Shown here: positions 23,621-43,857 of the stretch, in pieces
How the letters are laid out: each line of letters opens with the position of its first letter
Position numbering within the stretch: position 1 is the first letter of the stretch
Assembly: GCA_019509785.1 (NCBI GenBank)
Contig: JAEKLQ010000024.1
Location: 1-64,000, forward strand
Direction of reading: 5' to 3'
DNA from: Fibrobacterota bacterium
Lineage (GTDB): Bacteria > Fibrobacterota > Fibrobacteria > UBA11236
DNA length: 64,000 nucleotides
Made by a program: the position numbers and the translations under genes
The notes under the pieces: model-generated
Databases searched by the model: none
What the model was told of the DNA's origin: nothing
The model's input: only the letters and a program-made list of their open reading frames with translations

Positions 23621-24360
23621 GGGGCAAAGCGCCGCAAGACGGGCGGGCCGAAGGGAAGTATTTCCATCAGGAACCGCTGGTAGCCTTCCAAGGTGAACCA
23701 GCCCTCTTGGCCTTTATCGCCTTGCGCCTTTTCGATATGGAATTCCTGCGCGGGCATGAAACTGAAGCCAATCAGGTAGAGCTTGGGCTTGCCCTCCGCC
23801 TCGGCGACGTCCAGGATGACGGAAACATGCCCAATACCCCCGTCCTGGTTCTGGACCAGCATGTCCCCCGGGACCAATGCGGCGGCGGAAGGGACCGGAG
23901 CGCATCCGCGCTTGAGGGAGTAGGAGTTGGCGTTGGCGAAGCTGGTCCGCAAGAAATCCGGATAGCTTTTCCCGCTGGATTGGAAGGCCTTCCGCTTTCC
24001 GTTGTAATCGAACAAATAAAGATGGTCTAAGTTATGGGCACGCTGGTGGTACTCCGCCCACAAGCGCATGGCGAAGTCGGCGCATTGCTCCAGATCCTGA
24101 TGGAAGAGGAGCGGCAGATCCGCCACGGCGAAGACGTTGAAGTCATTGATGAGATTGCCGTTGAAGGCGAGGATGCGTTTATCCTTTTTGACGGACAGGG
24201 TCTGCAGGAAACGGCCGTAGCTGCCCGGTTCGGTCCGCACGCGCGTATAGCCCGCGGGCGTGGGAATGGCCGTGGCAAGGGTGCGGACGCTCTCCGCGCG
24301 GGAGACGATCGGCAGGGAGAAGCCGAGGCATATCAGAAAGACCGCTATCTTGACGGCCAT
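23617..24360 (-). CDS. DUF4846 family secreted protein
   Basis: 247 residues from the ATG at 24360, which begins a clear signal peptide (MAVKIAVFLICLGFSLPIVSRAE). The mature part carries the DUF4846 patterns IPTPAGYTRVRTEPGSYGRFLQ..., LQQCAD-like LEQCADFAMRLWAEY and late GDMLVQNQDGGIGHVSVILDV. The last segment, with Gly-His, looks like an NlpC/P60- or amidase-type His region, but no full catalytic set could be assigned. It overlaps the DUF2007 gene upstream by 16 bases and the M23 gene downstream by 4. Confidence 0.75.
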   Translation of the reverse strand: MAVKIAVFLICLGFSLPIVSRAESVRTLATAIPTPAGYTRVRTEPGSYGRFLQTLSVKKDKRILAFNGNLINDFNVFAVADLPLLFHQDLEQCADFAMRLWAEYHQRAHNLDHLYLFDYNGKRKAFQSSGKSYPDFLRTSFANANSYSLKRGCAPVPSAAALVPGDMLVQNQDGGIGHVSVILDVAEAEGKPKLYLIGFSFMPAQEFHIEKAQGDKGQEGWFTLEGYQRFLMEILPFGPPVLRRFAP

Positions 24361-24761
24361 GTCTTCTTGCAGTCCCGGCACTTGAAAACCTTGTTGAAAC
24401 CGAAAAGTTTTTTCCAGGCATCCACGGCGAAAAACGCGCTTCGTATGCGGATTATCTTCCGGGTACGGATGCGCTTCGAATGGCAATCAGGACAATATAC
24501 CGCGTCTCGCGATATTTCGTCCTTTTCCTCCACGGTTCCATCTTCGATTACTTCTTCGGATTCCAATATCCCTTTGGCGGCCTGGAAATCCGCCTCCCTA
24601 ACCATCAGGCTGATACCGCCAATGGCGGTCAAGTAATAACTATCGACGCTCCCGCCGAATATTTCCGAGGCTATGCCATTCCGATCAAGCCGGTACCTGC
24701 CGATCTCGGCCAGCGTCACCCTCGGATAATTCCAGACTTCGACGAGTTTGCCTTCCCGCAT
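24345..24761 (-). CDS. DUF2007-type signal-transducing-like domain fused to a zinc ribbon
   Basis: 138 residues from the ATG at 24761. Residues ~5-70 resemble DUF2007 (LVEVWNYPRVTLAEIGRYRLDRNGI ... GGISLMVREADFQAAKGIL), a PII-like small fold. The C-terminal part has two Cys pairs, CPDC and CRDC, about 40 residues apart with a basic stretch between them, suggesting a zinc ribbon. A TTG six codons upstream is an alternative start. It heads the operon with the DUF4846 and M23 genes. Its 5' end faces the large structured region at 24.8-25.3 kb. Confidence 0.65.
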   Translation of the reverse strand: MREGKLVEVWNYPRVTLAEIGRYRLDRNGIASEIFGGSVDSYYLTAIGGISLMVREADFQAAKGILESEEVIEDGTVEEKDEISRDAVYCPDCHSKRIRTRKIIRIRSAFFAVDAWKKLFGFNKVFKCRDCKKTWPSR

Positions 24762-24775
24762 CTTTCCAAGATACT
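24748..24775 (+). promoter_or_regulatory. Candidate plus-strand promoter for the structured RNA
   Basis: TTGCCT (24748-24753) and GATACT (24770-24775) lie 16 bases apart, each matching the sigma-70 consensus at four of six positions. Transcription from here would begin near 24782 and run straight into the foldback region. The elements overlap the first codons of the minus-strand DUF2007 gene. The match is modest. Confidence 0.3.
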
Positions 24776-24839
24776 CCAATCGACTATCGAAAAGTCCTCG
24801 ACCTCCCGACCCACCTCTCTCCCCCTCCGCCGCGCCCCA

Positions 24840-25268
24840 TCCGCCGCGACCCCGGGGCCGGGCTTCCCGAGGCCCCGGGAATCGTATCGCCCGCGCGACC
24901 GCGAAGCGCGGGCGGGACCGGGCGGGGATCGCGCCGGCGTCGGAAAGGGAGGCACCGGGGCTCCGGTTCGCCGAGTCGTGAGCGTCACGGCCTGGAGAAG
25001 GGTAGAGTCCGCAGAGGACGGGCAGCCCGCGGCAGCCGGTGAGAGACCAACAGTTTGGTTCCGCGGGCGTCCCCTTCTCCAGGCCGTGGAAGGACCGGTG
25101 GGAGCGCTAGCGAACGTCCGAGGCGAACCGGAGCCCCGGGGACTCCCGGGCCGAAACGACAGGCGCGCTCCCCGCCCGGACCCGCCCGCGGATCGCAACC
25201 CCGCGCGGACGCCCCAATCCGAAGCGCGATCGGAACGCCCTGCCCCGGGCCCGACGCGCCCGTTTAAT
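24840..25268 (+). ncRNA. Large rod-like structured RNA candidate, family not recognised
   Basis: This gap between divergent genes has no credible protein frame and is almost pure G/C. It folds on paper into one long rod. Outward from the apex the pairs are: GACCAA 25045-25050/25055-25060; GCCCGCGG 25025-25032/25061-25068; a perfect 17-mer 24986-25002/25072-25088; a perfect 18-mer 24955-24972/25122-25139; 24947-24951/25143-25147; 24939-24942/25157-25160; 24930-24935/25162-25167; 24907-24928/25169-25190 with one A-A mismatch; 24901-24904/25193-25196; 24891-24897/25202-25208. A separate 5' hairpin is 24851-24879. The internal loops are asymmetric, unlike a simple inverted duplication. Hallmark sequences of RNase P RNA, tmRNA and SRP RNA were not found. 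Strand choice rests on a terminator-like 3' hairpin; a 5' leader role for the gene at 25303 is the main alternative. Confidence 0.6.
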
Positions 25269-25269
25269 T
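25246..25269 (+). terminator. Terminator-like hairpin at the 3' end of the structured RNA
   Basis: CGGGC (25246-25250) pairs with GCCCG (25258-25262) over a 7-base loop, followed at once by TTTAATT. It is short but is the only T-rich stretch on either side of the rod. It supports transcription on the plus strand ending near 25268. The ribosome-binding site of the next gene begins 22 bases further on. Confidence 0.4.
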
Positions 25270-25302
25270 ACCTTTCGGCCTCCCCCATAAAGGAGGTTGC
25301 GC

Positions 25303-25938
25303 ATGCGCATCATCAAGAATATCATCATCGCCGTGATCGTTCTCGCCGTCGTGCTCGCGGGCATCGGCTTCATGCTTCCCAGCGCCTATAAGGTAGAGCG
25401 CTCGGTGACCATAACCGCGCCGGCGGACGTCGTGTTCGACCAAGTGAACGATCTGAAGAAGAACGAAGCCTGGTCGCCCTGGATGAAGAACGACCCGAGC
25501 CTGCAGATCACTTATAGCGGGCCGGAAGCGGGCAAGGGCGCGACCAGCACCTGGACCTCGAAGAAATCGGGGAACGGGTCCCAGACCATCACCGAAAGCG
25601 TGCCGGGCAAATCCATCAGCACCTACCTCGACTTCGGGCAGATGGGGAACGCGCAGGGCGCGTGGGCCTTCTCCGAGGAGGGGGGTAACACCAAGGTGAC
25701 CCAGACGATGGCCGGGGACGCGGGCAAGAACCCGTTCCGGCATCTGATGAACCTGGCGATGGATAAGATGATCGGGAAGTATTTCGAGCAGGGCCTGAAC
25801 TCGCTGAAGGACGTTTCCGAGAAGCGGGCGGCGGAAGTGCAGGCGGAGCAGGCGGCCACCCGCCAAGCGGCGGTAGCCCCGGCGGAAGAACCGGCTGCGA
25901 ACGCCGTGCCGCCTGCCCCGACGGCGAAGAAGCCCTGA
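25303..25938 (+). CDS. Membrane-anchored SRPBCC (polyketide-cyclase-like) protein
   Basis: 211 residues from the ATG at 25303, which has a strong GGAGG ribosome site six bases upstream. An N-terminal helix (IIIAVIVLAVVLAGIGFML) is followed by an SRPBCC fold beginning YKVERSVTITAPADVVFDQVNDLKKNEAWSPWMKND, the usual 'SRPBCC family protein' pattern. The last ~45 residues are an Ala/Glu/Pro-rich tail. The ligand and role are unknown. It lies directly downstream of the structured RNA and could share its transcript. Confidence 0.75.
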   Translation: MRIIKNIIIAVIVLAVVLAGIGFMLPSAYKVERSVTITAPADVVFDQVNDLKKNEAWSPWMKNDPSLQITYSGPEAGKGATSTWTSKKSGNGSQTITESVPGKSISTYLDFGQMGNAQGAWAFSEEGGNTKVTQTMAGDAGKNPFRHLMNLAMDKMIGKYFEQGLNSLKDVSEKRAAEVQAEQAATRQAAVAPAEEPAANAVPPAPTAKKP

Positions 25939-43050: not shown

Positions 43051-43311
43051 TTAAATCTTATCCCAATCAGGCGCCTTTTTCTTGCCAACCTTTTTCATCA
43101 CCGCATCAAAATCACCCAAGATCTCCTTTTTGGTTTTGTCCTTCCAAATATCCTGGAAATAGCTCTGGGTTTCGGACTGGATGACTTCCTTGGTAAAAGC
43201 ATAAAGCGCGAATTGATTAAGCGAAACGCCTTGTTCGTCCGCCATGAGCTCAACCTTGTGTTTAAGTTCATTCGGAAGCCGGATGATTAAGGTACTCTGC
43301 TTACTTTTCAT
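43051..43311 (-). CDS. Ribbon-helix-helix antitoxin
   Basis: 86 residues. The N-terminus STLIIRLPNELKHKVELMADEQGVSLNQFALYAF is a typical MetJ/Arc ribbon-helix-helix domain as found in CopG/HicB-type antitoxins. The C-terminal half is acidic/basic and probably wraps the toxin. It overlaps the PIN toxin gene upstream by 11 bases. Toxin-first order is less common than antitoxin-first. The gene is AT-richer than its neighbours, suggesting acquisition. Confidence 0.78.
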   Translation of the reverse strand: MKSKQSTLIIRLPNELKHKVELMADEQGVSLNQFALYAFTKEVIQSETQSYFQDIWKDKTKKEILGDFDAVMKKVGKKKAPDWDKI

Positions 43312-43741
43312 TTCTTTTCCTCCACCCTTTCACGAAGCTGGATGGCGTCGCGACTAAAAAATCAGGAAAACGCAATTGCGAATGATGGGTAAAATCGCGA
43401 ACATTATTCGTAATCACGAATTGAGCCCCGCTTGCGACGGCAAGCTCCACAAAAATGTTGTCGCTTTCATCCCTCAGGTTGGGCCTGAAGTGGAAATGCG
43501 TATCGAATGGTCTTCCGATATAGGCGAGAAACGATAAGACATGCTCCACGTCCTCTACTCCCATGCCAAAATCCTTAAGGCTTTTTTTCCTTTTTAAAAC
43601 TTCTTCATATTCAGCGAAGACCTTGAGGGAGAGGGCCAGCTTAATCTTTTGATGCCGGATGAGGCCCAGAATGAAGTGAGATGCGCCCTCCGAACTGTAT
43701 AGGGATTGGAAAAGAACGTTAGTGTCTAACACGACAAGCAC
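43301..43741 (-). CDS. PIN-domain toxin (VapC-like, COG1569 type)
   Basis: 146 residues from a GTG at 43741. The PIN-domain acidic residues are visible: Asp in VVLDTNVLFQSL, Glu in FAEYEEVL, Asp in LRDESDNIFVELAVA and Asp in ITNNVRDF. Together they form the Mg-dependent RNase site. It belongs to the 'putative toxin component, PIN family' group rather than classic VapC. Paired with the RHH gene downstream, it forms a type II toxin-antitoxin module. Its promoter contains an inverted repeat. Confidence 0.82.
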   Translation of the reverse strand: MLVVLDTNVLFQSLYSSEGASHFILGLIRHQKIKLALSLKVFAEYEEVLKRKKSLKDFGMGVEDVEHVLSFLAYIGRPFDTHFHFRPNLRDESDNIFVELAVASGAQFVITNNVRDFTHHSQLRFPDFLVATPSSFVKGWRKRNEK

Positions 43742-43747
43742 GATTAC

Positions 43748-43776
43748 AAGATAGCGTATGCGCTATCACGAGTCAA
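43748..43776 (-). promoter_or_regulatory. Toxin-antitoxin promoter with operator in the spacer
   Basis: On the minus strand, TTGACT (43771-43776) and TATCTT (43748-43753) are separated by 17 bases. The spacer is largely filled by the inverted repeat GATAGCG (43750-43756) / CGCTATC (43761-43767). A dimeric RHH repressor bound there would block RNA polymerase, giving the usual autoregulation of such modules. Transcription would begin a few bases before the GTG start, giving a near-leaderless mRNA. Confidence 0.65.
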
Positions 43777-43857
43777 TAAATTGCTATGGTTTCCTGGGGT
43801 TTTTAGGTTTTCCCTACCAGAATAGCTGCTTCAACCAAGCTTCAATGGATGCTGGGC

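Follow-up and report, generated by a model that had tools for sequence, protein, structure and literature searches.

The rod-shaped structure at positions 24840-25268 of the window (the whole stretch of 64,000 nucleotides of Fibrobacterota DNA that was analysed) is probably a member of an old, genus-restricted and positionally conserved family of giant extragenic DNA foldback elements. An earlier note on this DNA had presented it as a giant RNA, with a DNA foldback as the alternative. The rod is not a lone RNA gene, since at least 80 copies of it make up a dispersed family, and the foldback turned out to be the better half of that note's title.

The fold itself is present and lies far above chance. 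Minimum free energies of -286 kcal/mol (plus strand) and -294 kcal/mol (minus strand) were calculated for 24840-25268, corresponding to z-scores of -9.0 and -9.5, respectively, against 100 shuffles, none of which (0/100) was equally stable. The helices initially described were recovered: the 17-bp helix 24986-25002/25072-25088 proved perfect when its complementarity was computed, and reading off the sequence gave a perfect 18-bp helix at 24955-24972/25122-25139 and a 22-position helix with a single A-A mismatch. The region had also been called almost pure G/C, which is wrong: the GC content is 72-78% in the gap and about 50-65% in the flanking DNA. The flanking genes, 24345-24779 (minus strand) and 25297-25938 (plus strand), are divergent as proposed, and the gap between them is the sole long gene-free one of the window, a second predicted gap (43312-43857) containing a PIN-domain gene. 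This second gap had been left empty by the codon-usage gene caller; positions 43051-43741 (minus strand) hold a HicB-like antitoxin gene followed by the PIN_3-domain toxin-like gene. The claim that the rod belongs to no known RNA family agrees with an Rfam covariance-model scan of the window, which returned 0 matches at gathering score, and with a permissive scan of the locus (E up to 10), in which the best local E values, 2.2 and 3.2, were at chance level. No tRNA or tmRNA was found.

When the genome that holds the window (5.4 Mb, 106 contigs) was searched at the DNA level, further copies emerged with 69-82% identity over long stretches. A first covariance model, R1, built from 6 aligned copies, recovered 39 copies from this genome and another 19 from four of the five sister species, and almost all of them matched end-to-end. 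A second model, R2, built from 58 copies, raised the total to at least 80 genuine copies, of which 48 belong to this genome and 32 to the four sister species (48, 20, 5, 5 and 2 copies by genome). These counts are lower bounds, a limited number of candidates being scored per search, and the set is biased toward the geometry described below because the copies were detected and aligned with a structural model. A model search of the 162 other genomes of the phylum found the family in none of them (absent from 162/162), and scanning about 85,000 species with 17-mers, and viral contigs twice, yielded only chance matches, none fitting the model. The hairpin family is found only in one bacterial genus. 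Many copies are located at contig ends (G005 C45, C108 and C241; G000 C59); the elements probably fragment assemblies made from short reads and are hence under-counted.

The core of the element is 153-220 nt long (median about 180 nt), extending to about 430 nt with the arms. It is ordered as follows: a helix H1 of about 16 bp, an internal loop, a left bulge, then helix H4 (16 bp), a right bulge located on the opposite strand, stem H5 (8 bp) and a variable apex. The internal loop has the consensus TC-R-GA opposite A-Y-TC, in which the R-Y pair covaries between G-C and A-T. The left bulge has a median length of 22 nt (IQR 21-22) with 1 nt opposite and carries a GGTC conserved at 81-91%; the right bulge has a median length of 22 nt (IQR 21-23) with 4 nt opposite and contains an unpaired C conserved at 99%. 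The asymmetric bulges that had been pointed out in the window copy are thus conserved to about 1 nt in 80 copies. H4 measures 16 bp in almost every copy (IQR 16-16) and 16 of its 16 pairs are changed on both sides, while 97.5% of the H5 cells are paired. The helix letters vary freely, and the shape is kept at a mean pairwise identity of about 52%. We also considered that the two bulges could be copies of one motif, their GGGTC and GGGATC being alike, but do not claim this (permutation p 0.04-0.25). No covariation supporting a pseudoknot between the two bulges was found. Apparent G-U pairs in the internal loop were traced to mis-set columns, the true pair, 20-381, being G-C/A-T.

The family's 5'-to-3' sense corresponds to the minus strand of the window, on which all parts of the window copy are given. 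This copy belongs to a long subtype, which starts with GGGCGCGTCGGGCC and comprises three other copies; these are 82-84% identical to each other and 75-78% identical to the window copy. The whole element spans 24842-25261 and reads 5'-GGGCGCGTCGGGCC... from 25261 to about 24842. Positions 24892-25261 resemble copies on contigs C57, C54 and C73, and the arms pair out to 24842/25258. The 5' side of the outer arm (25162-25205) pairs with its 3' side (24892-24935) over 44 nt with 82% complementarity, the 3' side being delimited from the arm complementarity and the minus-strand fold of the rod. The two strands of H1, 25122-25139 (5') and 24955-24972 (3'), form the perfect 18-bp helix mentioned above, and in the family alignment each of the 15 H1 pairs that were modelled is changed on both sides. 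The conserved internal-loop motif follows, with a 5' side at 25110-25121, of the CTCGGA..GCTCGC type, and a 3' side at 24973-24985, of the GCTCGCAACTC type. Among the 80 copies, unpaired T, C and A are conserved on the 5' side, where columns 20-381 covary, and an unpaired A (99%) and an unpaired C (96%) on the 3' side. The left bulge (25089-25109) is 21 nt long here, for 22 nt in the family, and carries GGTC. H4, of 16-17 bp, is made of 25072-25088 (5' strand) and 24986-25002 (3' strand) and is perfect over 17 bp here. The right bulge (25002-25024) has 22 nt, typically CTTTCGATNCCCTGGATCGATTC. H5, with its GCCCGCG the most conserved stem, is made of 25061-25068 (5' strand) and 25025-25032 (3' strand) and encloses the apex (25033-25060), variable in sequence and in length (4-67 nt across the family). 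The apical hairpin GACCAA-cagt-TTGGTT that had been noted is not a helix conserved family-wide.

Just outside the element, TTACCTTT at 25268-25275 (plus strand) is a -10-like box of the neighbouring gene, and the same box precedes the orthologs in sister species that have no element at that locus. The element ends directly upstream of this box. The neighbouring gene encodes an SRPBCC domain, and the box before it is conserved in the sister species (L203-L208; TTACCTTT in most) and looks like the TAnnTTTG promoter type. One sister locus (L203) has no element; its gene order differs and its intergenic DNA is too diverged for a footprint. Beyond the element's 3' end, GAGGTGGGTCGGG (24805-24817, minus strand) repeats, in direct orientation, the motif with which the short subtype has its 5' end. 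Many copies start with AGGTGGGTCTGG, about 20 nt ahead of the core, and AGGTGGGTC is located 19-28 nt before the core in about one quarter of the copies; it lies at both outward ends of some pairs only.

Covariation within the family is overwhelming. Of the 51 pairs, 49 carry changes on both sides, and 1012 cells are doubly changed. Pairing held in 91.6% of the cells compared to 65.0% in shuffles, and none of the 500 shuffles reached the observed value for any measure. Sliding the partner by one column made the pairing collapse to 40-45%. The earlier note had deduced a selected nucleic-acid structure, different from a recent inverted duplication, and both statements stand; its reading of that structure as RNA is not supported. 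Covariation normally counts as proof of a functional RNA. However, an RNA helix tolerates the change from G-C to G-U and not the mirror change to A-C, and this asymmetry reveals the direction in which the RNA is read, following the logic of RNAstrand (PMC1892782). Selection on an RNA of one strand should therefore give an excess of G-U, and none was seen: among the 3598 cells of the 46 well-supported pairs, 61 were G-U and 60 were A-C, both being equally rare, with 964 cells in a Watson-Crick pair other than the commonest one. The G-U and A-C counts were 15 and 16 in the 42 best-fitting rows and 53 and 46 in the 63 rows less than 70% identical. The control, RNase P RNA sequences from 27 genomes of this class scored against a predicted consensus structure, gave 56 G-U and 5 A-C (Fisher p = 1e-8 for the contrast with the family). 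As a second, DNA-level control we looked for attC sites in the sister integrons and found none by the criteria used.

With G-U and A-C equal and both low, either the complementarity is kept as such in the DNA, or pairing is maintained to the same degree on both strands; the RNA reading is not supported. A family of large structured non-coding RNAs, read off the sense strand of the element and present in many genomic copies, would account for the extreme covariation, the conserved strand-specific unpaired motifs and the rigid bulge geometry; we consider it unlikely given the missing G-U excess, the lack of an Rfam match and a placement of the copies that follows no consistent relation to transcription of their neighbours. 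Equal G-U and A-C counts alone leave transcription possible, and the same statistics are expected from hairpins needed in the RNA of both strands or from template switching matching the arms.

In the latter case the elements would be passive, functionless quasi-palindromes, i.e. copies of an old repeat in which the complementarity of the arms is due to template switching during replication, a process that can make and maintain perfect stems and produces Watson-Crick double changes without G-U intermediates (PMC8794818). But template switching should also erase asymmetric bulges and mismatches and invert loops, whereas the bulges keep their 22/1 and 22/4 nt, the right bulge is inverted in 0 of 80 copies and mismatches remain conserved. 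That several species retain copies at the same gene would moreover be unexpected without selection, and passive quasi-palindromes appear quite improbable.

All 80 copies are intergenic (80/80) according to the codon-usage gene caller. Their orientation is independent of the strand of the neighbouring gene, with 33 divergent starts and 24 sense stops on the 5' side. Close pairs are convergent in 16 of 16 cases, for which the probability under random orientation is (1/4)^16. The neighbours, which we take from their sequences to be unrelated housekeeping genes, are guaA, uvrB, pcrA/uvrD, argG, ftsY, gpmI and others. Hairpins needed in the RNA of both strands, as bidirectional transcription insulators or terminators between genes, would fit the intergenic placement, with the 5' end near the neighbouring gene, as well as the convergent pairs; since a G-U pair on one strand corresponds to A-C on its complement, both would be disfavoured, in keeping with their equal and low counts. 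This explanation is improbable in our opinion, as 13 of 58 copies are flanked by divergent genes, a setting that receives little transcription, the motifs conserved in the bulges are specific to one strand and no consistent T run follows the hairpin in the sequences inspected.

Of the 32 copies in the sister species, 22 have a counterpart next to the same gene in another species, matching in side and strand, and paired copies are still paired in three species. These same-gene copies are only 44-72% identical although the neighbouring proteins are mostly 74-96% identical, and orthologous copies are no closer in sequence than unrelated or random copies. Between same-gene copies we counted 207 Watson-Crick-to-Watson-Crick double changes, versus 92 cells in a non-Watson-Crick state. 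The simplest interpretation is that the copies were inherited vertically while selection acted on their shape; insertion at one gene border several times over is a less simple alternative.

Among known systems, REP, REPIN and BIME elements are extragenic, imperfectly palindromic and multi-copy, often form inverted pairs, show compensatory hairpin changes and persist for long within lineages (PMC3116915). The family resembles them by its extragenic location (80/80), its inverted, i.e. convergent, close pairs (16/16) and its compensatory changes, and it behaves most like a giant REPIN or BIME. In contrast, REP units of about 20-60 bp are conserved in sequence, whereas the core of about 180 nt (430 nt with arms) is conserved in shape at about 52% identity and has two 22-nt bulges, and most sister-species copies lie at the same gene as in another species. 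REP and REPIN elements are also mobilised by RAYT, a Y1 transposase, and this genome has none. Membership of the REP group was thus rejected on size, sequence conservation and the Y1 transposase. MITEs have terminal inverted repeats and measure about 100-400 bp (PMC3116915). Like ERIC-type palindromes they are short, non-coding, dispersed intergenic repeats with inverted-repeat character, but both are conserved in sequence, which the family is not. No target duplication or empty site could be made out in the family. The large non-coding RNAs HEARO/omegaRNA, OLE, GOLLD, ROOL, 6S and RNase P are similar in size, rod shape and covariation; unlike them, the family exhibits neither a credible Rfam match nor G-U asymmetry and consists of many copies with no linked gene.

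The integron attC sites act in recombination as folded single-stranded DNA; these hairpins keep their structure rather than their sequence and are shorter than the core of the family. The family shares with them this conservation and a variable apex, and would share a folded single-stranded DNA substrate; full-length integron integrases above the curated cut-off are encoded in four sister species (G001 C17, G002 C53, G003 C17 and G004 C13; L231-L234). That the copies are scattered attC sites is nevertheless extremely unlikely. The RYYYAAC...GTTRRRY box pair (R and L boxes) flanks 0 of 80 copies, for 0.4 expected by chance; no cassettes are present, and the copies are dispersed singly or in convergent pairs, adjoin housekeeping genes and have their conserved part in the middle of the element, not at its base. 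No family member was found in the integron loci examined, and no integrase above cut-off in the two hairpin-richest genomes. The attC identity was refuted as stated.

We similarly searched for transposases. The Y1 transposase (PF01797) is absent from the two copy-rich genomes, this one included, and present only in G001, a genome without a detected element; a Y2 transposase (IS91-like) was not found in this genome. An HUH-transposed element (IS200/605, IS91) was rejected, neither the Y1 nor the Y2 transposase being encoded in this genome.

Returning to a DNA foldback element, its working form would be a folded DNA strand, either a hairpin formed by the single strands that a replication fork exposes or one arm of a cruciform. 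A protein could recognise one strand by its two 22-nt bulges, its conserved internal loop and its GCCCGCG stem, the helix sequence being free in that recognition. The copy number and the recent copies 82-84% identical to each other suggest past mobility; the family may have spread as a non-autonomous REPIN- or MITE-like element by means of a recombinase or transposase and would now be mostly inherited vertically. It might be retained at many sites because the folded site serves the chromosome, by protein docking or by insulation between neighbouring genes. The searches for Y1 and Y2 transposases and for an integron integrase in copy-rich genomes did not provide a protein partner. We tentatively suggest a new chromosomal element, a near-constant folded-DNA site selected on DNA shape at the same gene borders genus-wide and read by a host protein. 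The geometry of such a site, put forward with similar reserve, would be a 16-bp duplex with two 22-nt single-stranded flaps, opposed to each other, at its sides. If a host protein does read the folded DNA, the family would define a new class of sites for chromosome organisation or recombination. That the family covaries as strongly as a structured RNA, yet has a mismatch pattern that says DNA, is a warning for the discovery of non-coding RNAs, and the comparison of G-U with A-C is a simple test separating RNA from DNA hairpins.

The copies at one locus (L091, L094, L095 and L057) carry subtypes resembling other copies of the same species group, and a GCGCGAA/TGTAATGCGCC subtype is shared in G002 and G004. 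Such species-group subtypes may reflect concerted change or a species-specific binding partner. Finally, a second, unrelated repeat (CTTATGGCTG...CGCGGGGCTCC...GGACGGGGTCCTCAATAGCCGCGCTCGGAGGG) is located inside or just after hairpin elements on several contigs, after position 2499 of L062, at about 1615-1700 of L008 and at about 1730-1860 of L006.
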